Shown: positions 3,789-43,876 of the stretch, in pieces | Layout: every line of letters begins with the position of its first letter | Numbering within the stretch: the stretch's first letter is position 1 | Origin: Chrysochromulina tobinii | Taxonomy: Eukaryota; Haptophyta; Prymnesiales; Chrysochromulinaceae | Assembly (NCBI GenBank): GCA_001275005.1 | Contig: JWZX01003119.1 | Coordinates: forward strand, 1 to 46,254 | Direction: 5' to 3' | Length of the DNA stretch: 46,254 nucleotides | The notes under the pieces: model-generated | What the model was told of the DNA's origin: nothing | Database searches by the model: none | What the model saw: only the letters and a program-made list of their open reading frames with translations | Translations under genes and position numbers: made by a program

Positions 3789-4435
3789 ATGCTTCGATGT
3801 GCAATTCTTGTTGCCGCCGTGCTGCCTCTGGCCGAGGCGTTCGCGCCCGCGGCCCGTGCGCCGCTCCGCCTCGCGCGCGCCCGGTCGGCAGCCGCCTCTT
3901 CGAAACCGCTCATTTCGATGAACGACTCGGGTGAGGGTGCGGGCTTCTCGCTGCCCTTCTTTGGTGGCAAGCGGCAGGCTGGTGAGAAGGAGGTGGCAGG
4001 CTGCGGAGGAGGAGAAGATGACGATCGAGAAGGTGGCCTCGTTCGGCATCGCTGGTGTGCTGTCGATCGCCGTCGCCGAAACGGTCTTCTGGGTGCTGTC
4101 CTTCCCGACCTCTGAGCTGCTATACTATTCGTCCACTGGCGAATGGATTGATCTTCTGACGCAGGAGGGCCAGATAAAATTCCTCGCTTTCACGGTGCGC
4201 TCAGCGCCGTGCACGAGCACGCCCACGTGCCATCGCGCCACTCCTCTGCATGCAAACACTCACGCGCTGCGTGTCTGCCAAGTGGACGCAGGCGGGCTGG
4301 GGTGCACTCGGCGGTGTCATTGCGCAATATCGCACCGTGCTCACCGCCGCGGCGATGACGCCCTGGATGGACAGGGTCGTGGTGCAGCCATACATAAAGC
4401 CGGCGCTCGACAAGATGAAGAACAAGGATGCGTGA
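3789..4435 (+). CDS. Small plastid-targeted membrane protein, unknown function
   Basis: The N-terminus (MLRCAILVAAVLPLAEAFAP) is a textbook bipartite plastid leader of a secondary red plastid: a signal peptide, then A-FAP and an Arg/Ser/Ala-rich transit part. The mature part has a hydrophobic segment (FGIAGVLSIAVAETVFWVL), then STGEWIDLL and, after an intron, a second conserved stretch ending MTPWMDRVVVQPYIKP. About 185 residues in all. Exon 1 is 3789-4194, intron 4195-4282 (GT-AG, phase 0), exon 2 4283-4435. Within exon 1 the frame moves by one base somewhere in 3983-4017: the leader is in one frame and the AEEEKMTIEKV stretch in the next. No GT-AG intron of the right length fits there, so this is an indel, recoding or an unusual splice. 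The family name is not recognised. Confidence 0.6.
4195..4282 (+). other. Spliceosomal intron with a possible diverged introner-like 3' end
   Basis: An 88-bp GT-AG intron joins FLAFT to WTQAGWG in phase 0. The last 37 bases start CTGCATGCAA and then CTCAC. This resembles, at a similar distance from the splice site, the 3' module seen in introns at 36726, 40677, 41659 and 42128. The pyrimidine tract is weak. Confidence 0.5.
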
Positions 4436-4621
4436 GAGCGCGTGTGCACCCGGCCGCATGCGAGGAGAGGTTTGCATGGTGCATCGCCTATCGGCGCCCG
4501 TCTCTCAACCCTCCAAAGAGCCGCCACAGGATGTGCGTCTCCAGTAGGGACACGCCTAGTAGGATGGGGGTGTTTGTACTGTCCGAATCGTTGCGCAAAA
4601 ACGCTCGAGACGGCGTTTTGC

Positions 4622-20950: not shown

Positions 20951-23900
20951 ATGGCGAACGCGACAGGCGCACGTCCTGCGACCGCCCCTTCCACCACCGA
21001 TGAGGGCGTGACCGTGGCTGTGCGCATCCGGCCGCTGCTCGCCCGCGATAAGGCTGAGGGTGCGCGCGAGTGCCTGCGCAAGGTCGCCGGCGAGCCGCAG
21101 GTGCTCATTGGCGCCGACCGCGCGTTCACCTACAATCACGTGTACGACCTGGCGGCCTCTCAGGAGGCTGTCTTCGACGGCTGCGTCAAGGGGCTCGTGG
21201 AAAGCGTACTCTCGGGCTACAATGCGACCATCTTCGCGTACGGCCAGACTGGCAGCGGCAAGACGCACACGATGGGCTCGAGCTGCTCAGCCGACGCGGA
21301 GATTCCCGAGGACACTGCGCTCACCGAGGACTCTGGGCTGATCCCGCGCGCGATCGCTGCGCTCTTCGCCGGCGCCGCGGCGACCGAGGGCACCGAGTGT
21401 CGCGCGACTGCCGCCTTCATCGAGATCTACTGCGAGGAGGTGCAAGATCTCCTCCAGTGGAATGCGGAGGAGAGCAAGCTCACGACACTTCCCATCCGAG
21501 AGACTCCCGACGGCAGCCTGACGTTGAGCGGCCAGAAGCGGCGCGCCGTGAGCTCGGTGGCCGAGGCGATGCGCGTGCTCGCCGACGGCTCCCGCAACCG
21601 CGCGACCGGCTCCACGGCGATGAATGCGACCTCGTCGCGCTCGCATGCCATCTTCTCTCTCGAGCTCGATCTCAAGGTGCGATGTTGGCCATCGGAGTGA
21701 CATCGGAGTGCCAACGGAGTGACTTCGGAGTGCCATCTGAGTGCCATCTGAGTGTCATCAAGTTCCACTGACGGGCAAGATGATAGTCCGACGTGTGAAA
21801 GGCAAGACCTTCTGAGTATGACCACTGATGGCCACTGATGACCACTGATGTGATGACCACTGATGTGATGACCACTGATGACCACTGATGTGATGACCAC
21901 TGATGACCACTGATGACCACTGATGACCACTGATGACAGGTGAAAGGCAAGACCTTCTCGCCCAAGCTGCACTTTGTCGACCTGGCAGGCTCTGAGCGTG
22001 CGAAGCGGACCGGGGCGAGTGGAGAGCGCCTCAAGGAGGGCATTGAGATTAACAAGGGTCTTCTCGCGCTTGGGAACGTCATCAACGCGCTCTGCGAGAA
22101 GCACTCTCACGTGCCCTACCGCGACAGCAAGCTCACGCGTCTGCTCCAGGTGAGTGCCCCTGATTGCGCCCCAGTGCTCCTGATTGCCACTGATTGCAAC
22201 CGAGTGCCCCTAACTGCAACTTGATTGCTTCTCGTCGAGAGCCGCTGATGGGTACTGATGTGCGCTCGTGCCGGTACTGCAGGATTCACTGGGCGGCAAT
22301 TCGAAGACGCTCATGCTCGCGTGTGTCTCGCCCGGAGATGCCGATCTCGAGGAGACGCTCAATACGCTCAAGTACGCGAACCGCGCGCGCCAAATTAAGA
22401 ACAAGCCGGTTGTCGCGCAGGACCCAATGCAGGCGCGCCTCTCCGAGCTGGTGGAGACGATCAGCACGCTGCAGACGCGCCTGACGCACTACGAGGCGGG
22501 CGGCGCGCCGCTGCCTCCCCTCGCGCAGCTGGGTGCGCTGGGGACGAGTGCCGCGGGCGGTGCGAGCGGCGCGGGCGCGGCCTCAGCCGACCAGGTGACG
22601 GCGTTGATGAAGCGCCACTGATCGCCACTGATTGCCACTGATTATGGCCACCGATGACCACCGATGACCACCGATGACCACTGATGGCCACTGATGGCCA
22701 CCGATGACCACCGATGACCACCGATGACCACTTCCTGATTGGCGCAGGTGAAGGCACTGATGAAGCGTGTGGCGCAGCTCGAGAAGGAGAATTGCATGCT
22801 GCGAGAGCGAATCGCACAGCATGTCGCTCCGCTCAGCGGAGTTGCGGGCGCGGCGGCGGCGGCGGCGACGGGCGAGGTGGGCACGGTGGAGCCAGCCTCG
22901 GAGGCGGCGGAGGGCGACGAGGGCGGCGAGGAGGCGGCGGCATATGCGGCCGAGGCGATGGAGGCGGAGCTCGAATTCCAGACCAAGCAAGGTGATTGGC
23001 GCTGAGTGCCACTGATGATCGCTGAGTCTCACTCTTGATAGTGCCACTGATGAATATGTCCTCTGATGAATATGTCAACTGATGATGGCTGCGTGCCACT
23101 GATGATCGCGAAGTCTCTCTCTTGATGGCGCCACTGATGATGGCGATGAATGTCCACTGATCCTTGCTCCACTCATGGCGCAGGTGAGCTGTCCGAGCAG
23201 CTCGAGACTCTGAATGCGTCCCTCGCCATCAAGCAGGCTCTCCTCGCGGCGCAGCGCGAGCGCGAGGGGCGCGGCAGCTCGGCTACTGAAGGCGGCGAGG
23301 GCGGCGTGGACCTGGCCGGAGGGGAGGGCGGCGTGACGGAGGATGTCAACTCACTGCAGCAGCAGCTCGCGAGCCTCGAAGTGAAGCTCGCCGCCGTCGA
23401 GACCGAGCGCGATGCCTTGGCCATGCGCCAGGTGCGCGCGTCGTCCCGAGCGCACATCACGGCGCTCTGAGAGCGATCTCGAACGAGCTCGATCGAGCTC
23501 GAGCCCGATGCCCGATGGAGATGATGTCGGCAAACATAATCTATCCCACTGACCGACTGAAAAGTCCTCATGATAGACGACCACTGCTCGCCACTGATCC
23601 ATGAAGCACCACCCCTTGCTTCAGCTCCCCACCCCTTCCCCTTTGCCCCAAACCCCTATCCCGTACTCTCACCGCCTTCCCTCACGCTGACCGTGCCGTG
23701 AACGGCGGTGCTGTGCCGGGTGATGCTGTCACGGGTGCAGGCGAGCGGGAAGGCAGCCGACGCGCGTAAGCTCGAGGCCCTCGAGGCGGAGATCGCGAGA
23801 TTGCGCCGGCAGCACGCGCAGCAGGCGACCGTCCTCCAGGTGAGTGCCACTGATGGCCTTTGATGGCCTCGGAGCGCCTTTGATCGCCACCCTTTGGTGC

Positions 23901-26858
23901 TCCAGGCGAAACGCGAGGCGGCGGAGCGCGTGGCGCAGCTGCAGAACGAGATCGAGCTCATCAGGGCCCAAAAGGCCGAAATCGGGCGGAGGCAGCGGGA
24001 GGAGGCCGCGTCGCACCGGGCACACAAGGTGGCGCGCGAGCATGAGTTTCGTCAATTGCAGCGCAAGGAGGAGCGGACGGCGTCGCAGCTCGCGAGGCTC
24101 GAGCTCGAGTACGAGAATGACGCCGTGATTGTGCCGTGATCGTGATTGTGTCGAGATTGTGTCGAGATCGTGATTGTGCCGTGATCGTACAATCCCTCTG
24201 CGGGGTGCCTCTTGATTGCCGCGGATTCCCTCTTGATGACCTTTTGGTTGCCTCTTGATAGCCGCTGATGCGCACTGGCTGGGTGCGCGCAGATACGCGA
24301 AGCAGGCGAGCGTGCTCAAGCGTAAGCAGGAGGAGATCGTCGCCGCGCAGAAGAAGATGCGCTCTCAGGAGGAGATGGCCAAGGCGGCGGCAGCCCGCCG
24401 ACAGGGAGCCCCCAGTGCAGCAACCGCCGGTCCGGGCGGCGGTCAAGGCGGCGGTCCGGGCGGCGGTCCCGGCGGCGGAGGGGGCGTCAACGGCGGCGGC
24501 ACGACTCCACGAATGCCTCTCGGGGGTTCGAACGGCAATGGCGCTCACAACGGCGCCCCGCCGCTCTCGGCACGCGGCACCAAGCCCGGGGGGGGGCTGG
24601 GGGGATCCTCGGGGTCTACCCGCCCGAGCGTCTCGATGGCCACCACGGCTTCGATGCAGGCGAAGCAGGAGGGTAAACGCGCTGATGAGGCCGACAAGGT
24701 GCGCGGGGTGCATCTCTCTGAGGTGGATCCTCTTGAGTGCATCTCTGAGTGCGCCTCTGGGTGTGCCTCTGATGACTTCCCTGATGACCTATCTGATGAC
24801 CTCGGTGAGCATTTTCGCTGAGCTTTTCGCCGTGCTTGCAGGCGGTGTCGGCGATGGCGGCGCGGCCCGCGGCATGGCTCAAGGAGGAGGTGACGGCCGT
24901 TACAGCAGGCCAGCAGCTTCGGGAGCAGGTGAGTGCGATGATTGGCACTGAGTGCTATGGATGGCTTCGGATGGCCACTGAATGCAACCGTTGCGCTGCT
25001 CCAGGTGGCAATGACGATTGAGCTCCGTCGTCAGTGTGCCCTCAAGCTGCAAGCCATCGAGCTGCGGGCGGAGGAGGCGTCACAGGCGATGACAGCCTAT
25101 GAGGGCGGCGACGCGAGCTCATCCGCGGCCGAGGCGGCGGCGGAGATGGCGTCACGCCAGGCGGAGGCAGAGGCCCTTCGCCTCAAGGTCGCTCATTACT
25201 CGTCGGAGCTGGTGAGCTTGCAGACGAAACTCGTTCACCAGGAGTCGTCGGAGACGGCGGTGGCGAAGCTCGAGGCGGTACCCGACCTGAAGCAGGCTAA
25301 GGCGATGCTCAAGGCGGCCTTCCCACAGGTGATTGCGACCGATGGCCTCTCGTCGCACTCATGGCGCTACTGATCCCTACCGATCCCTACCGATGATGGT
25401 CTGATGGGTGCAGATTGCGACTGCTTGCGACTGATTGCGGCTTTGACTCATTTTTCTCTCATTACGACTCATTGCGGCTATGTCCTCCTTGTCATCCATT
25501 CCACAGCTCGTCAACCTGCAGCTGAGCGTGCACAAGCGCGAGCAGCAGCTCGAGGCCAAGGCGCGCGAGGTGAGCGATGCCAGCTGATTGCTCATGATTG
25601 CTCATGATTGCAGCTGGAGGCCAAGGCGCGCAAATGAGCGACGCAGTTGAGCTCGCCTCGTGTGCAGCTGATTGCGATTGACTCGTCTTTCATGCGTTGC
25701 ATGCAGGTGAGCGACGCTGTCGAGCTCGCCTCCTCACTGCGTGTGCAGCTCGTGCGTGAGCGCAAGCAGGCCGACACACGCTCACACGAAGCACACACCG
25801 CGATGGCCCTCGCCGACGAGCGCGCGCGAGCGCTGCAGCGTCAGCTCGAGGCGCTGTCGCGCGCGAACGGGGCTGCCCAGGGCGGCGCGGCACAGGACGC
25901 GAGGGCTGCCGTGGCTTCAGAGATGGAGGCCGTGCCGCCGCTTCCCGCGCTGAAGAGCGATGTGGGCAGCTGTGCAGACCTTGACAAGAGGCTCGCGCAG
26001 ATCAAGGCGAAGCATGCTGCGGCACCGAGCTTTGCACTGCCCATCGCCCCTCCGCCAGCGCCAAAGGGCGCGGCGGAGGCGGCGGCTCTGAAGGCCGCGC
26101 CTGCGGCCGCTTCGTCAAAGCAGGCTGCTCGTCGTCTGTCTATGATCAAGCTCGCACGCAAAGGGGGGGAAGAGGAAGAAGAGGAGGAGGACGAGGAGGG
26201 GAGTGAGGATGAAGAGGACGAGGAAGAGGACGAGGAAGAGGAAGAGGACAGCGATGTCGATTGGGAGGAGACTGAGGAGGCTCAGATGGTCACCTCGAAG
26301 CGAGAGCGTTCCAAGGCGAAGGAGGCCGCCCCTGTACCGGTACTCGAGCTCGGACTTCGCCCGCGCCGTGGCGGGCGCCGCTCCGCCGACCAGGCAGAGG
26401 ACGCGGGGGACAAGCCCGCGCCGCCTGATGAAAAGGGGACGCCCGCGGAGGTTGGGGGGGGTGGCCTGACGAAACTGGAGGCGAGCTCCGCCGCCAATCC
26501 GGGCGCATCACAACCGACGCCGCCGAACGCGCGACCGTTTGCGCAGATGCAGTCCAAGGAGGCGGGAGATGCGGGCGAGATCGAGCTCACGAGCCTTGAG
26601 AACGTCAAGGGTGCCGCCGCCGCCAAGAAGCTGGGCGCGAAGCCGCGTGCGCCCACGACGACGCCTTCCGCCGCCGCCGCCGCCAAGCCGCGCGCCGCCT
26701 TGGGGCGCATCGATGGCAACGCCGCCGGTGCGGATGTTGCGGGTGGGTTCTCGAAGGCGGTGACGAAACCTGCATCGGCCAAGGGCGAGGCGGGTGGCAC
26801 TCGTAAGTTGCTCAACACGACGCAGGTGGTCTCGGTCAACTTGGTTGACAACGAGTGA
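20951..26858 (+). CDS. Kinesin-4 family motor, 12 exons
   Basis: N-terminal motor with Walker A GQTGSGKT, switch I NATSSRSH, switch II DLAGSE and neck [34 protein letters not shown], the Trp-containing PAAWLKEEV and the acidic tail near [11 protein letters not shown] fit the KIF4/KIF21/KIF27 group, which controls microtubule dynamics, spindles and cilia. Exons: 20951-21676, 21940-22149, 22283-22594, 22748-22991, 23184-23431, 23741-23839, 23906-24135, 24293-24698, 24842-24928, 25005-25328, 25507-25569, 25707-26858; 1366 residues. All eleven introns fit GT-AG and keep frame, and most donors are AG|GTG. The exon 7 end (24135) is the least certain. Long coiled coils follow the motor. Exon 8 has a Gly-rich linker and exon 12 an acidic stretch (26170-26280). 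Confidence 0.88.
21677..21939 (+). other. Kinesin intron 1 with a copy of the exon 2 start and a decamer array
   Basis: The 19-mer GTGAAAGGCAAGACCTTCT at 21795-21813 is identical to the first 19 bases of exon 2 (21940-21958). The following 21821-21937 is an array of TGATGACCAC decamers with some 5-bp slips. Confidence 0.9.
22595..22747 (+). other. Kinesin intron 3 beginning with a copy of exon 4
   Basis: The intron's first 20 bases (22595-22614) match the first 20 of exon 4 (22748-22767) at 17 positions. Read through, the intron would code VTALMKRH-stop in place of VKALMKRV. The rest is CCACTGATGA/CCACCGATGA decamers (22615-22730). Confidence 0.9.
25570..25706 (+). other. Kinesin intron 11 with a copy spanning the exon 11-12 junction
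   Basis: 25611-25669 aligns to the end of exon 11 (25546-25569) and runs without interruption into the start of exon 12 (25707-25750). It reads CTGGAGGCCAAGGCGCGC and then TGAGCGACGCAGTTGAGC, where the exons have CTCGAGGCCAAGGCGCGC and GTGAGCGACGCTGTCGAG. The copy has lost its GT at the junction and has small gaps. Confidence 0.85.
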
Positions 26859-36305: not shown

Positions 36306-39108
36306 TCACTGGAGGCGCGCGGCGGGCGCGAGCAGCCGGATGGCATGGAGCAGAATCTGCGCCATCAGGTAGCGCCCCGCGTTGAGGTAGTGGAATGCCG
36401 AATTCTTGGCAAACTTGATCGCATGCGGCGTCTGCTGGAAGACAGCATCGTAGGTGGCAGGGTAGTTGTCGACGTACACCATACCCGCCTCCTCGACGAG
36501 AGGGCGCATATGGCGCGAAAAGGCCGCCTGCTGCCGGAAGGTGTTGACCGGGTCGAAGTTGAACGCGGGCGAGCGGAAGATGGTGAGCGTGCGTCGGCCG
36601 AGGCATGCATCTGAAGTGCGCAGAGCCGCACGCATGCCGCCGAGCGTGCTCCTCCATGCGGACGCGCCGTGGAAGGCTCCAAACTGCGGTCCAAAGATGA
36701 TGGCGTCGGCGCCGTAGCCGACGGACTGTGGGGAAGGGGGGGGGCGCGCCGTGGTGAGCACTTGCATGCAGGGCTGCTGGGTCCACATTGAGGCCGCCCA
36801 CCTGTGGGCCCCACGTGCGGAAGGTCTCGTCGAGCAGTTCGGATGTCTGCCCATCGTACAAGTAGAGCATCGACATGGATGGGTGGCCTGTGGGGATCCA
36901 ACTTTTGGCGGACTCGAGCGCATCGGCCCATGTGCGTCCAACGCAAAGCATCGCCGTCGCGCGGCACGTCCATGCCTGGTCAACGGGCTCGCGGCACGGA
37001 CGATGGCCCTGGCAGCGCCCCCGGAAGGCCCAGCAGTCGTCGTAAAACGGCGTGAGCTTCGGCCGGCTGATGCCGTACCCGAGCAATTTGCTCTTCTCAC
37101 CCAGGGCTGCTTGGAACGCACGCGCCGCCTCGACCCAAATCGCCGAGCCAGGCGCAAACGGCTTGCACACGTGTCTGCCGCGGCACTCGGGGTGGCGAGC
37201 GCAGGAGGCGATCTTGCCGGTGCACTCACACGCCTTGTCCTCGCAGAAGCCGTTGAAGGACTCGCGCTCGCCGTGATAAGTGGGGAAGTAGAGCCAGGCG
37301 TTGGGCTCCGTCGACGAAAACACCTGCCGGCGGCGCCTGCGTAGGCCGCCGGCAAGGGCGCTAAGGGCGCTACCCACGCTGCCCGCGCCCGCGTCCCCGT
37401 AGCGATCCGCAGGCTCCTCTTCATAGTGGACGGAGACGTTGGCCATCCAATGGCGCGGCTCTCCGAGCTTCTGCTTCCACTCGGGCGTCGAGAAGAAGGC
37501 CTCGAGCTCACGTAAGACGCGCGCGCGCACGCGGGTCGCCAGGCCGCTACCGAGCCCCTCAGCCGCCGTTGCGCCAGCGCCTCCACCGCCTCCACCGCCT
37601 CCGCCGCCTCCACCGCCGCGCCGGCGGCGCCGCCTTTCGGTCGTTCCTGGAGCCGTGCTGGCGAGCAGCGCAGCGCCGCCCGCGATGCCTTCGGCGCCCG
37701 GAGGCACGTACAGGACGCCGTCGGGGTGGGAGCCCGCCCAGGAGAGCGTGCGCAGCCCGCACTGCATTGCCGTCTTGCCTGCGTGCTGCATCTGCATCGC
37801 GGCCAGCTCCTCCGCCGGCACGAGCAGCCGGAAGGAGACTAAGGGGCGCCACTCCCGCCCGGCCCATTTTGTACTACGCCAGTTGCCTAATATGGGCTCG
37901 GAGCCGCCGCCGCCGCCGGGATCGCGCCACTGATGCAGCCGGCCCGGGTTGAAGACCGAGTGCGAGTCCTTGAGCCCACAGATCGGCTCGGTGTGCGGCA
38001 TCGAGAAGCGGTGCTCGCCGGTGGTCAGGTCAACTGTGAAGAGCTGCGACGCGTGGTAGCCGCGGGTCATGTTGTCTTGGTCCCAGATCCACGAGCGCGC
38101 GAGCGCGTTCGCGTCCTTGAAGGTGGGCACCTCGACGTCCGTGAAATTGTTCAGCTGCCGGTGCGCCGCTGGCCCAGCGAGCAGATCGAGCAGGGTGTAC
38201 ATCTGGCGACGTACCACCGAGTTACCGAAGAAGACCAGATTCTTGCTGCCGAGGAGGCAACGGGTCTCTGCGGTGCCGACCCAGCGCCGACCGCACTCGC
38301 TCGCCGACGGGGAGGCGGATGACGAGCCATTGTAGGCCCCGATCCCGGCACCACCGCCCAGCGTGGGCAAGGCACGTGCGCCGTCGAGCTTCGCCGCTGG
38401 ACCTTCGAGCCCCGGCGCAGCGCCGTCGATCGTCGCTGGTGGTGCGTCGACGAGACCCTCCGCGGTCCAGCGCGCGTCACCCGCCCGGCCGAGGCACGTG
38501 CGCGTGCGGAGCGAGAGCTGCGACATGTCCACCTGCCGGAAGGGCGCGCACACCGCGCCCGCTGGCAGCGGCGCCACCGGCAGCTGGAGGTGGCGGCGCA
38601 TCTGAAGGCCGATATCTGAATTGTCGATCATGCTCGACTCCTTCTGGAGGCAGTCGGCCTGCCGGTCGAGCTCCTCCTTGCTCGCGAGGGACGCCTCCTT
38701 AGGCTTCGGGCAGCCGCCCTGGAACTGCTGCAGCTTCGCATTGTCCTCAGCGATCACTGCGAGCTTGTGGTCGCGGTACATCTTGGCGCGCACCTTCTTG
38801 TAGAGCGTCTGCAGCCGGGCGAGCGCGTCCTCGCCCGCACGCGTCGCCGTGAGGATGGCCGCCTCGTGGTTCCGCAGCTCAGGAAGCGTGAGGGACGCGT
38901 CGATAGCCTCCTCGCTCGGCACTTGCGCAGGGATGCTGCCACCTGCCGCGCCGGCCAAGCTGGCCGCTGCGCCGGCAAAGACGGCGCTCCCGGCCATGCC
39001 ACCCGATGATGTCCACTCGGCGTGGCTCGCGCGGCCGCCGCGACCGCGGCCACGGCCGCGGCCACGCCAACCGCGCCCTTTTTTGATGTAGTCGATTGAG
39101 TTCGGCAT
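36306..39108 (-). CDS. PC-esterase/SGNH-like protein, two exons
   Basis: Met at 39108 gives ~908 residues; another in-frame Met lies at 39183. Exon 1 ends at 36802 (TWGPQ) and exon 2 runs 36725-36306 (SVGYGADAIIFGPQFGAF...), with an intron at 36726-36801. A donor 15 bases further on (after GGLN) also keeps frame, but AG|GTG at 36802 fits the local donor rule. SKNLVFFGNSVVRRQMYTLL resembles block I of PC-esterase/Cas1p/NXPE enzymes (GDSxxR, with Asn for Asp). The end carries RPLVEEAGMVYVDNYPATYD and HAIKFAKNSAFHYLNAGRY, in the place where these enzymes have their Asp/His block. Such enzymes O-acylate or deacylate glycans in the secretory pathway. Odd points: an RGRGRGRG run near the start, no clear signal peptide, and long Gly- and Arg-rich inserts. 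Confidence 0.65.
36726..36801 (-). other. Intron ending in the introner-like 3' module (copy A)
   Basis: On the gene strand it ends CCCTGCATGCAAGTGC, then TCACCACGGCGCG, a C/T tract and CCCCACAG (36773 down to 36726). A 28-base run is identical to the module in the CNB gene at 42128-42168. Confidence 0.85.
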
Positions 39109-39264
39109 GGGTTCAATCCGCGTGTGAACCCGTTTTTCCTCACGAAATTTTTCACACCGTTCGCACTCCAAACACAAAAACACTCACGCATGGTATGGTT
39201 TCCGTCCGGGTGTGGACGTGCGGTCGCACCTGCCATCGCGCCGGGACCCGGGATAAAAGATCAT

Positions 39265-42200
39265 TTACGAGCTGCTCATTCCGCCGTCCGCGACGCCGCT
39301 GCCGCTCCCGCCATCCTTGCCGCCGCCGCCGCCGCCCTTCTTATGGCGCTTCTTCGGCTTTCCGCCCTTGCCCTTCCCTTCCGGGATCGGCGAGACCTCA
39401 CTGGCGGGGCTGCTTTCGTGCCCGCCGATTCCCCCGAAGGTGCGCGGCGCGTCGCTCCGGGCACTCGGTGAGGCGGCCAGGAAGCTCTGGTCGGCCGCGT
39501 TGGGCTCGATGTCGGCGAAGAAGGAGTCAATGAGCGCGTTGAAGACCGTGTGTGGCCCCTCGGGCCACGCGAGCATCGAGAACCCCATCTCCGTGAGCTC
39601 CAGAGTGTGCACCTGATGAAGGGGACACTCCGTGTCGATCAGATGCAATCAGATGCAATCTGACGCAATCAGACGCAATCGGACGCAATCAGACGCAATC
39701 AGATGGCCCTGACCTGATGAAGGGTACACTCCGTGTCGACAAGATGCACTCAGACCCAATCAGACGCAATCAGACACAATCACCTACTTGTCGATCAGGT
39801 GCAATCAGACCCAATCAGATGGCAATCAGATGGCCCTCACCTCAGCCTTGCCCGGCCCGGCGCGCGTGATGAGAAGGTCGCATCGAAACGCGACCGTTGG
39901 CTCGGCGCTGCGGCAGCGTAGCCACGTGAGCCAGTGGCGCACGAGCCGGCTCGCCTTTCGCTCCGCATCCTCCATAGCGACGCTATCGTTCGCGAACCAG
40001 GTCGAGATTGCGGCAGATCGCTCGAGCTTTACAAAGTCGCGTAGGTAGCCGTCCGGATCCACCCGCTCGCAGGTGGAATAGATCAGGTGTTCGATGCGCC
40101 CGTTGACCACGAAGCAGCGTAGCTCAAAGTGGTTCTTGCAAAAGTCCTGCACGAGGATTGCGGTGGACTCCACACCCTGGGTGGTGACCAGTCCTTGCAT
40201 AGCCTCGGCGAGCTGTGCTTCCCCCCGGAAGATGCGTACCTAATTAGGGAGGCACTCGCAGGTGCTCAGAGGCCATCAGAGTCCATCAGAGGCCACCAGA
40301 GGCCATCAGAGTCCATCAGAGGCCATCAGAGGCCATCAGAGGCCATCAGAGGCCATCAGAGGCCATCAGAGGCCATCAGAGGCCATCAGAGGCCATCAGA
40401 GGCACTCAGAGGCACTCAGAGGCACTCAGAGGCACTCAGAGGCACTCAGAGGCACTCAGAGGCACTCAGAGGCACTCAGAGGCACTCAGATGGCACTCAA
40501 TGACACTCAGAGGCAATCAACGGCGCTAGAGGCACTCAATAGCAATCACCTCGCCCTCGCGGATCAAGATGAAGGAGACGCCCGGGTCGCCCTCCCGAAA
40601 GAGGAGATCACCCTCGCTGAAGTCGACCGACTGGAAGGCGTTGAGCACCGTCTCACGCTCGGATGAGGAAAGGTACCTGTGGGGGGACACAGCGCCGTCC
40701 TGAGCACTTGCATGCTGGGCCGTTGCACGCTCGGATGAGCGGAGGAGTCCCGAATGAGGGGCGCCGTCCTGAGCGCGCCCTTCATGGAACTTGTAATCGA
40801 GCCATCAGGCCAATCAAGGGCAATTACCGAAAGAGGGGCGCCGTCCTGAGCGTGTCCTTCATGATCTTGTAGTCGAGCTGCAGCTGCAGAGGGCCGAGGA
40901 GCTTGACGAACTCTTCGCGCTCGAGCAGGATGGCCGTGACGCGGCCCAGAGCGATGCAGTCGGCGGCGCGGGGTTCGTCACGGAGCAGCGCGCGCTCCCC
41001 TGATGATGGAGGCAATCAATCATCAGGCGCACACAGCACACAGGCGCCATCAGACGCCAACAGACGCCATCAGTCACGCAGGGTTCGTCACGGAGCCGTT
41101 CGCGCGCGCTCACCAAAGTACTCCGATGGCAATCAGACGCAATCAGACGCAATCAGACCCTCACCAAAGTACTCCGACGGACCATAGGTCTTGACATGCT
41201 TCTGGTTGACGAAACACTGGACCTCGCCCTCCTTGACAATGAAGAAGCTGTGCCCCGGCTCGTTCTGACGGATGATCACCTGGGATCCGGAGGAGGGCCG
41301 TCGAGTTTCGTTACAGCAGCCGTCGAGTTTCGTTACAGTCACAATCACAGGGCCATGCGAGGCTGTGCAGGGCTTTCGAGTTTCGTTACAGCGGCAATCA
41401 CAGGGCCATGCGAGGCTGTGCAGGGCTTTCGAGTTTCGTTACAGTCACAATCACAGGGCCATGCGAGGCTGTGACTATCACAGTGCCATCAGTGCCATCA
41501 GTGCCATCAGTGCCAATGGCAACATAACTCAAATTTGCTCAGAGGCCATCAAGGGCACTCACCTCGCCCGGCTGGTACTCGCGGTGGGTGCACTCCTCCA
41601 AAATCGCCTCCCGTTCATGCTCGCTCAGATGGGACAGGAGCGGTACGTTGCTCAGCACCTGTGTGGGGAAGTGGGCGCGCCGTGGTGAGCGCTCGCATGC
41701 GGGGGGCACAGGAGCGGCACGTTGCGCTCGCGCCGTGGTGAGCACCTCGCGCGTAAAGGACATCTCCACCAACTCGGTCAGCGGGCCGGTGATCTCAATT
41801 AACGTCTTGCGCTCAATCTTGGCGAGCACAACGGGCGTCGTCGCGAGCACGTCGTACGCGCGGGGTTCGTCACTTAAGAGCGAGCGCATGCCGAAGTAGT
41901 CGCAGCGCTGCAAGGTGCCCATCACAACGCCGTCGGGGAGGACCTGCCAAATATGGGAACAAACATATGGTTCATCAGCTCAGCTCGGCGCCCGTTCAGC
42001 TCGCCGTGGATTCATCAGCGTAGCTGCCTAATATGGGATCAAACATATGGTTTCGTCAGCGTACCTGGTTGATGGAGCCCTTGAGGATAATGTAGAGGGC
42101 AGCTCCGATCTCGCCGTGCGAGACCACCTGTGGGGGAAGGGCGCCGTGGTGAGCACTTGCATGCAGGGTACTGTTGAGGGCAGATCCGATCTCGCCGTGC

Positions 42201-43876
42201 GAGATCACCTTTTGGCCTGCCTCGAAGTGCATCTCGACGAAGGCGTCCGCAATCTGGTCGAATCTCGCCTGCGTACAGTCAATCAGTGGCAATCAGTGGC
42301 AATCAGTGGCAATCAGTGGCAATCAGTGGCAATCAGTGGCAATCTGGTCGAATCTCGCCTGCTCGAGCCCCTTGAGGATGCTGATGGCCTTGAGGGCGCG
42401 GCTTATGGCATTGCGCGTATCCATCGCGTCGGTGATCGAGATCTCGCGGTACACCTGACGAGGGAGGCAATCAGAGGTCATCGGAGGTCATCAGAGGCCA
42501 TCGGAGGTCATATGAGGTCATCCTCCGAGGTCATATGAGGTCATCCTCCGAGGTCATCAGAGGTCATCTCCGAGGCCATCCGAGGTCATCAGCGAGGTCA
42601 TCAGCGAGGTCGCGCGAGATGCACACCTTGCGAGGGAGCGCCCATAGCTTCGCCGTGTCCGACGAACACACAACTGATGCCTGGCGCGGCTGATTGTACC
42701 TGATGACGGAGTTCATCACGAACGCCATCAGAGAGGCCATCCACGGCAAATCCGAGAGGCAATCCGAGGTCATCAGAGGTCATCAGCCGCAATCAGCCGC
42801 AATCAGCCGCAATCAGCCGCCATCAGAGAGGCTATCCACGGCAAATCCGAGAGGCAATCCGAGAGGCGATCAGAGGTCATCAGCCGCCATCAGCCGCCAT
42901 CAGCCACCATCAGCCACCATCAGCCACCATCAGCCGCAATCAGCCGCCATCAGCCACCATCAGCCGCAATCAGCCACAATCAGCCGCCATCAGCCACCAC
43001 CATCAGCCGCCATCAGCCGCCATCAGCCTCCATCAGCCTCCATCAGCCGCCATCAGCCGTCTTCACATTCACAGCATACATGAGCCCGAGCTCGCCGAAC
43101 GCGTCGCCCCGCTCACGCATCTGGACGAGCTTCACATGCTCCGAGTCCTCCCACGACGAGAAGCGCGAGACCACCGTCTTCACATTCACAGCCTCGGGGC
43201 GTAGATTCATCTTCGATGCGAGGCTCTCGGAGATTGCGTCGGAGATGGCGGGAGGTTTCCAGCCAACCGCGTGGTTGTTGGCGCGCATGTCGCGGAAGAT
43301 GTGGAAGGTGCCACTGTCCACGACGTAAAAGTTGTCGGTCGCGCCGCCGGAGAGCATCTCGCCTTGCTGGATGACGACCTCATCGCGCGTCGTCTGGACG
43401 GCCACCATCACGTCGATGGTGAGATCTCGCTGGCTCTCGGACATCTCGTTGAACAGGATGCAGCCGTCGATCGCTTTGCGGAGCATCGCGCGTGTGGCTG
43501 GGTCCTTGGCGCCCTGGGACGCTGTGTCCATGAGCACGCGCGTCGACTGGCGGCTCACCATGGCGGACGTATTCTCGCCCACGACGCCCGCGCGGCGCCC
43601 GCGCGAACCTTGACGTTCCAGCAAGCCCTCGATCACCTTGTCGTCGAGCGTCTTCTGGCTGCGCTCGTACGAAAATGTGGTGGTCGTCTGACGCTTGGTC
43701 TTCCTGAAGGAGCTGCTGGAGGAGACGACGGGCCTCTCATCACCCGGAGAGGACAACGGTGCCGCTTTGGCGGGAACGCTGCTTCCGCAGCCCCTGCGCA
43801 CGAGTGTCAGCCAGGGCGATTGAGCAGCGGCAATCGAGGAGCGTGCAACAGGAGCCAGCAGCAGGAGTGCCGACAC
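39265..43876 (-). CDS. Multi-CNB-domain protein (PKG/PKA regulatory type), 12 exons
   Basis: Exons on the minus strand: 43876-43080, 42699-42627, 42454-42359, 42268-42209, 42127-42065, 41943-41746, 41658-41563, 41279-41165, 40999-40828, 40676-40550, 40239-39841, 39612-39265; 847 residues, all phases consistent. CNB1 ends FGELGLMYNQPRQASVV, a full phosphate-binding cassette with Glu and Arg. CNB2 has YFGMRSLLSDEPRAYDV (the Glu is Met). CNB3 has YFGERALLRDEPRAADC (intact). CNB4 is partial (PLFRYLSSSERETVLNAF, FILIREGEVRI). No kinase domain follows. The C-terminal ~240 residues (ELRCFVVNGRIEHLIYS, VAFRCDLLIT, VHTLELTEMGFSMLAW) faintly recall ATP-grasp strands, with a Lys/Gly-rich tail. It probably senses cAMP or cGMP at CNB1 and CNB3. 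Confidence 0.85.
39613..39840 (-). repeat. CNB intron 11: decamer array and duplicated 3' splice region
   Basis: The stretch CCTGATGAAGGG with ACACTCCGTGTCGA (plus strand) at about 39612-39640 recurs at 39713-39742, so the acceptor region is present twice. The rest is GCAATCAGAC-type decamers, the reverse complement of CTGATTGCGT. Confidence 0.85.
40240..40549 (-). repeat. CNB intron 10: long 10-bp tandem array
   Basis: 40263-40499 is almost wholly GAGGCCATCA units, then GAGGCACTCA units (plus strand). On the gene strand these read TGATGGCCTC and TGAGTGCCTC. The two halves differ as blocks, indicating local expansion. The array is not a CRISPR: there are no spacers. Confidence 0.95.
40677..40827 (-). 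other. CNB intron 9: copies of both flanking exons and 3' module D
   Basis: 40756-40802 is a close copy of the end of exon 9 (40833-40878). On the gene strand it runs directly into a copy of the exon 10 start (CTCATCCGAGCGTG, 40726-40740; exon at about 40653-40666). Then comes module D (40677-40719: GCATGCAAGTGCTCAGG, ACGGCGC, CCCCCCACAG). Confidence 0.85.
41000..41164 (-). other. CNB intron 8 with a copy spanning the exon 8-9 junction
   Basis: 41077-41126 contains on the gene strand TCGGAGTACTTTG (end of exon 8) followed at once by GTGAGCGCGCGCG and GCTCCGTGACGAACCC (start of exon 9). Exon 9 matches are at 40966-40999 and exon 8 at 41165-41177. Confidence 0.9.
41301..41472 (-). repeat. 53-bp tandem repeat in CNB intron 7
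   Basis: TCGAGTTTCGTTACAG occurs at 41301, 41323, 41376 and 41429 (plus strand). The last intervals are 53 bp and include GGGCCATGCGAGGCTGTG. The array lies within intron 41280-41562, followed by a CAGTGCCAT decamer run. Confidence 0.9.
41659..41745 (-). other. CNB intron 6, 87 bp, in frame and stop-free, with 3' module C
   Basis: Joins SFTRE to VLSNVPLL. GTGCTCACCACGGCGCG at the intron start recurs as GCGCTCACCACGGCGCG near its end, inside module C (41659-41706, preceded by CGCATGCGA). CAACGTGCCGCTCCTGT inside the intron copies CAACGTACCGCTCCTGT of exon 7. The length is 3 x 29 with no stop, so retention would add 29 residues. Confidence 0.8.
42128..42208 (-). other. CNB intron 4, 81 bp, in frame: exon 5 copy plus 3' module B
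   Basis: The first 40 bases match the first 40 bases of exon 5 at 36 positions (VISHGEIGSAL against VVSHGEIGAAL). The last 41 bases are module B (42128-42168: CCCTGCATGCAAGTGC, TCACCACGGCGC, CCTTCCCCCACAG). No stop in frame, so retention would add 27 residues. Confidence 0.88.
42269..42358 (-). other. CNB intron 3: GC-AG intron flanked by a perfect 23-bp direct repeat
   Basis: The same 23 bases occur at 42250-42272 and 42340-42362 and hold both splice sites. The gene strand reads GAGCAG|GCGAGATTCGACC at the donor and ACGCAG|GCGAGATTCGACC at the acceptor. Splicing restores one copy. The inside is six CAGTGGCAAT decamers. No GT fits the donor position. Confidence 0.8.
42461..42610 (-). repeat. 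CNB intron 2 repeat: GAGGTCATC-type units
   Basis: Degenerate ~10-bp array (plus strand TCAGAGGTCA, TCGGAGGTCA, TATGAGGTCA), with a repeated TATGAGGTCATCCTCCGA. Confidence 0.9.
42721..43060 (-). repeat. CNB intron 1 repeat: GCCGCCATCA decamers
   Basis: About 30 decamers (plus strand GCCGCCATCA, GCCACCATCA, GCCGCAATCA, GCCTCCATCA) inside intron 42700-43079. A ~38-bp block (GAGAGGCCATCCACGGCA, then AATCCGAGAGGCAATCCG) at about 42731 recurs at about 42825. The intron start also repeats GCTGTGAATGTGAAGACGG of exon 1 (43174-43192) at 43058-43076. Confidence 0.93.

Follow-up and report, generated by a model that had tools for sequence, protein, structure and literature searches.

A repeated half-intron module in the alga Chrysochromulina tobin, completed in most sampled copies by duplicated exon sequence

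The genome of Chrysochromulina tobin contains a repeated sequence module that is half an intron. In most sampled copies of subfamily S1, the donor half of the intron is a duplicated segment of exon, and the module makes up the other half. Subfamily S2 shows the reciprocal arrangement. We consider it reasonably probable that the module belongs to an introner-like family that has expanded, in which it represents the acceptor half, and that S1 and S2 arose by capture at staggered breaks accompanied by exon duplication. The copy number and the duplications suggest that the module is, or was, mobile.

The window, i.e. the whole stretch of DNA analyzed here (46,254 nucleotides), is contig G000:C1960 of the searched assembly, which comprises 53.15 Mb in 2253 contigs. 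For the C. tobin genome, the sections of PMC4580454 drawn on here give 59 Mb, 63.4% GC, and one intron per gene on average. Between 36 and 44 kb of the window, the genes are coded on the minus strand, and four introns carry a 24-nt core on this coding strand. Both the 36726 copy and the 42128 copy have the core as GCATGCAAGTGCTCACCACGGCGC, and it reads GCATGCGAGCGCTCACCACGGCGC at 41659 and GCATGCAAGTGCTCAGGACGGCGC at 40677. A preliminary description of this DNA had proposed a shared 3′-splice-site module in these four introns, and indeed all four possess the core, a variable and mostly C/T stretch downstream of it, and then CACAG. The 28-nt identity that it reported between two copies likewise holds, namely for those at 36726 and 42128 (CCCTGCATGCAAGTGCTCACCACGGCGC). 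An Rfam scan of the window gave no match.

An exon duplication is found in three of the four module introns of the window (44, 21, and 20 nt), all three located in the CNB gene. The intron at 42128..42208 (minus strand, 81 nt, core 42141-42164) is of the S1 type. Here, a 44-nt exon segment is present as a first, intronic and donor-bearing copy (42165..42208, minus strand) and as a second, exonic copy (42084..42127, minus strand); both are assigned to repeat family D10 and are 89% identical. The 21-nt duplication of the intron at 41659..41745 (minus strand, 87 nt, core 41677-41700) starts 7 nt inside the exon, and the 5′ end of this intron features a second, partial core (GTGCTCACCACGGCGC). The intron at 40677..40827 (minus strand, 151 nt, core 40692-40715, repeat family D11) is composite: its 20-nt duplication starts 9 nt inside the downstream exon, and the end of the upstream exon also recurs within it (37 nt, 92%). 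The fourth, putative intron, at 36726..36801 (minus strand, 76 nt, core 36746-36769, borders read from the sequence), lies in a neighboring gene provisionally called PC-esterase-like. No exon duplication was detected for this intron, its duplication score of 7.5 being within background. The unspliced open reading frame of the neighboring gene matched no Pfam family at E 0.001, and its C-terminal piece, spliced and translated by eye, gave only a sub-threshold match to Hen1_N.

The module introns of the CNB gene at 42128, 41659, and 40677 were placed by manual splicing together with homologue alignment. When all 11 introns are removed by hand, a single open frame extends up to the terminal stop, and the resulting protein comprises four cyclic-nucleotide-binding stretches. 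A database search with this protein did not bring up the C. tobin model of the gene itself. Across all three module introns (beginning at 42208, 41745, and 40827), the alignments with the top six homologues are free of gaps in six of six cases; removal of these introns thus restores the reading frame. The lengths of the 11 CNB introns are 3n in five cases, 3n+1 in five, and 3n+2 in one. The first CNB intron (43058-43199) opens with duplicated exon sequence; the exonic counterpart is ∼100 nt upstream and not adjacent to the junction.

The module is highly repetitive in the assembly as a whole. With up to two mismatches, GGTGAGCACTTGCATGC occurs 1200 times on the forward and 1099 times on the reverse strand (backward control, 5 and 5). 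A genome-wide search returned 912 exact matches to the 16-nt core GTGCTCACCACGGCGC (470 and 442 on the two strands), whereas the reversed control gave 0 and 0. In 482 cases, the core is followed within 2-28 nt on the same strand by CCCACAGG (control, 0), whereas a mirror-image acceptor on the strand opposite the core was found once. These counts support the earlier claim that the unit includes the acceptor.

The orientation of the module relative to coding sequence was assessed for 123 distinct copies from 29 loci, most of which were picked for being copy-rich. We used a codon-usage strand caller that was correct on 111 of 119 pieces of 120 nt when scored on its own training genes. An acceptor was recognized by pattern in 88 of the 123 copies, and strong calls for these comprised 48 sense and 2 antisense; the 35 copies without acceptor yielded 16 sense and 1 antisense. 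Overall, 64 strong sense calls stand against 3 antisense among the 123 copies, and all other calls were weak.

Within the core, the motif GCTCA is present in a fraction of 0.99-1.00 of 122 copies, a value biased by the fact that these copies were found by the core; positions C6, C22, and G23 are equally constant. In the S1 introns, GCTCA is situated 22-33 nt upstream of the acceptor, a placement that hints at a branch point. Folding of the RNA of five introns or inserts gave z-scores between -1.24 and 0.62 and no stable fold. The constancy of GCTCA in this core-selected set, together with CCCACAG being a functional signal, could be taken to mean that there is no mobile unit at all, and that the copies share only the common splicing signals (branch point, pyrimidine stretch, and acceptor). 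We give this explanation practically no credence, since all 24 nt are common to the copies and bare cores are found in open coding frames in both orientations.

Read on the coding strand, an S1 intron follows exon 1 with a GT that opens the duplicated segment, a gap of 0-14 nt (sometimes longer), and GCATGCAAGTGCTCACCACGGCGC. Its second half consists of a mostly C/T stretch and CCCCACAG, after which the downstream exon begins with the GT of the other duplicate. Of the 88 acceptor copies, 71 had a duplication score of at least 12, a level reached by 2 of the 88 when each was shuffled a single time. The duplication begins exactly at the exon start in 50 of the 71. To these we added a second set of 20 further copies with core and acceptor, picked blind to their flanks. 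The donor half is the duplicated downstream exon in 16 of the 20, starting exactly at the splice junction in 13; the other 4 are without duplication. A score of 14 was reached by 113 of 166 module copies and by 1 in the inverted control. At random places of the same loci, the same score was reached in 128 of 997 cases because short tandem repeats are common.

The dimensions of the S1 introns were taken from 51 of 106 acceptor copies, which were not part of arrays and had the duplication no more than 2 nt from the exon start. In these 51 introns, the duplication is 17-48 nt long (median 30, sd 7.3) and the intron as a whole 62-99 nt (median 77). The two copies are identical in 12 of the 51, with a median identity of 0.95, and a GC donor is found in 6. 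Duplication and module also occur together as tandem arrays of two to four near-identical units, as seen in L037 (7023-7290, plus strand), L047 (1512-1622, minus strand), L057, and L066.

Introns flanked by duplicated exon segments would also be expected from plain tandem duplication of exon segments containing AGGT, with splice signals converging later, a route of intron gain reviewed in PMC3443670. Convergence would not yield a near-constant 24-nt core, however, and such a core lies between the duplicates and recurs across different genes (reversed control, 0), which renders this explanation highly improbable.

In subfamily S2, the module carries the donor instead. S2 is composed of GTACGTTGATTGCCACTGATGACCTGCCTT and the core (usually ACAGCGC), and 175 copies were found with a 31-mer at up to three mismatches or 195 with a 39-mer (controls, 0). 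In most of the 20 copies that we fetched and examined, the acceptor repeats the final 7-19 nt of exon sequence upstream of the intron. Among the 18 copies with a donor call, 16 have their best repeat ending exactly at that donor; in L053, the scripted call was 4 nt too early. The score taken by itself is a weak signal: at least 9 was reached by 14 of 20 copies and, when the best of 20 shuffles was taken, by 10 of 20. L058 (19 nt) and L061 (17 nt, one mismatch) are clear cases, as are L051, L052, and L065 (15 nt). A 3′ end, GTTCGG(C/T)TCTCGAGGAGCAG, is partly common to the S2 copies L051, L055, L056, L063, and L068 and also to L012 and L035. Judged by eye, the targets of the copies with this end have 4-14 nt in common with it, a hint that microhomology was involved in the 3′ join.

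The borders of the inserts are well defined: most begin at GCATGC or at the donor GTACG, and their ends cluster at (A/G)GCGC or CACAG. Sharp ends and a high copy number are what would be expected if the module were a common introner-type DNA transposon of the non-autonomous kind, with a transposase and a short target duplication of fixed length, as is known for introners elsewhere (PMC9860276, in the sections drawn on here). However, the duplications of 17-48 nt (sd 7.3) contrast with the 3-9 bp of that introner type, and their length and variability tell against cut-and-paste movement by a transposase and favor either fill-in at staggered breaks or target-primed copying. Furthermore, as judged by eye, the ends GCATGCAA and CCCCACAG are not inverted repeats and do not pair, the three kinds of insert have only their middle in common, and some introns devoid of the module show the same layout. 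We therefore regard a DNA transposon of this type as very unlikely.

Introns of this layout without the module were sought as duplications anchored at potential splice junctions (C/T-AG followed by G-T/C) more than 250 nt from any module. The resulting 46 rows form an uncurated list that contains simple repeats and duplicate contigs, and 14 of them look clean by eye. Among the clean examples, the duplication measures 33 nt in L036+1640 and L039+5652 (identical) as well as in L037+542, and 41 nt in L033-7364; another example is 21795-21939 of the window. The inserts of these clean candidate introns are mostly arrays of 10-nt repeats that end in TCATCAG and lack the core. The CNB gene itself contains such an intron (42269..42358, minus strand, repeat family D15) with a 10-nt repeat array, a GC donor, and an identical 24-nt duplication at its flanks (42249-42272 and 42339-42362). 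Two further candidates in the window lie on the plus strand. The one at 21795..21939 consists of a 10-nt array with an identical 19-nt duplication anchored at the predicted splice junctions, and the one at 25634..25706 shows a 26-nt duplication and the acceptor GCATGCAG. The duplication layout hence seems to reflect a process, or else to be common to several element families that are not related to one another.

Tandem repeats of 10 nt (CTGATGACC, CTGATTGCC) make up introns between 39613 and 43079 of the window as well as in L036, L037, L039, L044, and L047. Many of these introns end in TCATCAG, and some have an anchored exon duplication like that of the module introns.

Bare 24-nt cores, placed between duplications and without a typical acceptor, are also found inside coding sequence, some of them antisense. 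L050 (2046-2990) possesses eight antisense cores in a minus-strand frame that is open over all 533 codons read; six translate as RRGEH(L/V)(H/N)A and two as AVVSTCMHG. In L034, two tandem sense copies lie in an open frame (AHASAHHGA), together with one antisense copy. The bare-core units measure 48 and 69 nt in L034 and 60, 60, 60, 45, 54, 60, 51, and 48 nt in L050, so that unit length is a multiple of three in 10 of the 10 readable units of these two loci. An exception is the bare copy L045+5987, whose 58-nt unit is not a multiple of three. Because bare cores lie in frame on either strand, insertion itself is independent of strand and of splicing. Surviving insertions are either cleanly spliced or mostly in frame.

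The antisense cores in the coding frames of L050 and L034 contradict the preliminary description where it called the unit sense-only. It had also named an equal frequency of antisense or intergenic copies as the finding that would speak against an introner-like element. Sense prevails among the strong strand calls, the other calls are weak, and antisense coding copies occur in these two loci. The designation as introner-like is retained for a dispersed, high-copy, and mostly sense element, with the correction that the unit is only half an intron and that its donor half is, in most sampled copies, duplicated exon, a feature absent from the preliminary description.

The reading frame also appears to matter for the S1 introns. 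In 51 non-redundant S1 introns (from the window, L011-L015, L022, L025, L026, L031-L050, and L071-L090), total length is 3n+2 in 30 cases and 3n in 19, and 3n+1 in only 2. When the 5′ and 3′ parts were re-paired at random, 3n+1 occurred with a mean of 16.2, and values of 2 or less were never reached in 20,000 trials. This deficit therefore points to apparent frame-dependent selection on total length, and it looks as if unspliced messages were translated. The 11 introns of the CNB gene lack this skew. Asymmetric nonsense-mediated decay was tried as an explanation for the rarity of 3n+1 and rejected, as both shifts lead to a stop within 150 nt at about equal frequency (27 and 32 of 50 cases).

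We favor the capture of an intron half at a staggered break as the origin of these introns. An S1 insert would consist of the core, a mostly pyrimidine stretch, and CCCCACAG, amounting to ∼40 nt, and its insertion would duplicate 17-48 nt of the adjoining downstream exon. The first copy of the duplication, which usually begins with GT, would become the donor half of the intron, and the module would supply the acceptor and a likely branch point (CTCAC). Splicing of such an intron in the cell would restore the original message. An S2 insert would comprise GTACGTTGATTGCCACTGATGACCTGCCTT and the core with the donor, the acceptor being provided by the duplicated end of the upstream exon. The duplications could stem from the fill-in of staggered breaks with long overhangs, and the insert might be copied from another intron by microhomology-primed synthesis. 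Selection would then retain insertions that splice cleanly, or those that stay in frame when unspliced.

Whether this reflects a process of the host and not one transposon is a more tentative matter. In that case, any intron half that has a branch point and a single splice site could be copied into a staggered break within an exon, and the filled-in overhang of 17-48 nt would form the missing half. The core family, its S2 partner, and the unrelated introns of 10-nt repeats would then all be products of a single process. We regard this as a possible but by no means established extension of the capture model.

The main rival of capture is target-primed reverse transcription, by which an intron RNA, or a short RNA derived from an intron, would be copied into a nicked exon by the enzyme of a retroelement. 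The 3′ end would then be fixed, and the length of the target duplication would vary. The duplications do vary in length, the S1 inserts stop at the 3′ end of the intron, and, as judged by eye, a few bases of the common 3′ end of S2 copies are also present at their targets. Moreover, the genome contains 26 reverse-transcriptase domain matches, 22 of them above the family cut-off. In contrast, the S2 and bare-core inserts end at (A/G)GCGC and not at the intron end, neither a tail nor a source RNA was seen, and no link connects the enzymes with the module. On balance, we consider reverse transcription rather unlikely and retain capture at a staggered break as the preferred origin. A variant in which reverse transcription stops at the lariat branch was rejected, as inserts start at GCATGC, ∼14 nt before the branch-point-like A.

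The open frames that contain the reverse-transcriptase matches are hundreds to thousands of residues long (e.g. G000 C2236:14348-14833). A scan of viral contigs yielded one clear module, near the end of the IMG/VR contig L091. At 4370-4554 of this contig, the module has an acceptor and occurs together with an array of 10-nt repeats and a duplication at the flanks. By eye, the remainder of the contig looks unlike the alga, and it may be a chimera or DNA of a related alga. A further match in a viral contig (L092) has no acceptor, looks like chance, and was discarded.

The origin of spliceosomal introns is an old open question. Many introns of C. tobin keep the join visible, in the form of a half-intron next to duplicated exon, of mirror-image subfamilies, and of in-frame by-products that were never spliced. 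A repeated piece of DNA seems to have made many introns, which may be one way for introns to be born in bulk, and as the alga is culturable, intron birth can be tested in it. The layout further suggests that similarity searches with whole introns would detect only about half of each such intron.

Several known systems resemble the introns described here, as far as the sections of the cited papers drawn on here extend. As in introns from tandem genomic duplication (PMC3443670), a duplicated exon with a proto-splice site becomes an intron; C. tobin differs in having a shared insert between the copies that supplies the acceptor. The neointrons of Daphnia, attributed to staggered double-strand breaks (PMC4202315), likewise have a repeat of the neighboring exon at their opposite end. 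Their repeats of 4-12 bp are shorter than the 17-48 nt of S1 and overlap with the 7-19 nt of S2, and in contrast to C. tobin their inserts apparently are not one common module. Direct repeats near intron borders have also been read as traces of insertion (PMC11782384). In the 213 introns considered there, which comprise all classes, these repeats average 11.4 bp with a maximum of 30 bp, and the sections considered describe no shared half-intron. Of the traits of a SINE-like retroposon, a variable duplication was observed in C. tobin, no 3′ tail was seen, and the Rfam scan of the window gave no match for a source RNA.

The introner elements of Micromonas (PMC4815162) and Amoebophrya (PMC7789003) are high-copy, have common motifs, and use rare donors, as is the case here. 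Unlike the C. tobin introns, the Amoebophrya elements possess inverted repeats (8-20 nt) and short direct repeats (3-5 nt), and for Micromonas the sections considered mention intron-internal motifs but no long duplications of exon. Further parallels come from the introners of Gozashti et al. 2022 (PMC9860276), which are many similar introns in unrelated genes; correspondingly, C. tobin has 482 copies with core and acceptor (control, 0), and an intron of the CNB gene shares 28 nt with one of the neighboring gene. As here, there are introner families in that survey that carry one splice site and obtain the other from the target duplication. One such half-carrying family is from a metagenome-assembled genome of a marine Chrysochromulina sp., with 4-bp duplications. 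C. tobin is absent by name from the main text of the survey, and its family may itself be catalogued in the introner-family supplement. In the searched literature, which covered few subscription papers and left out supplements, no long exon duplications with common half-introns were found for a haptophyte. Introners themselves are thus known. Whereas the duplications of the surveyed introners measure 3-9 bp, those of C. tobin contribute 17-48 nt of exon and hence a large part of the intron, and it is these shared half-introns, with their long exon duplications and two reciprocal subfamilies, that appear to be new relative to the searched literature.
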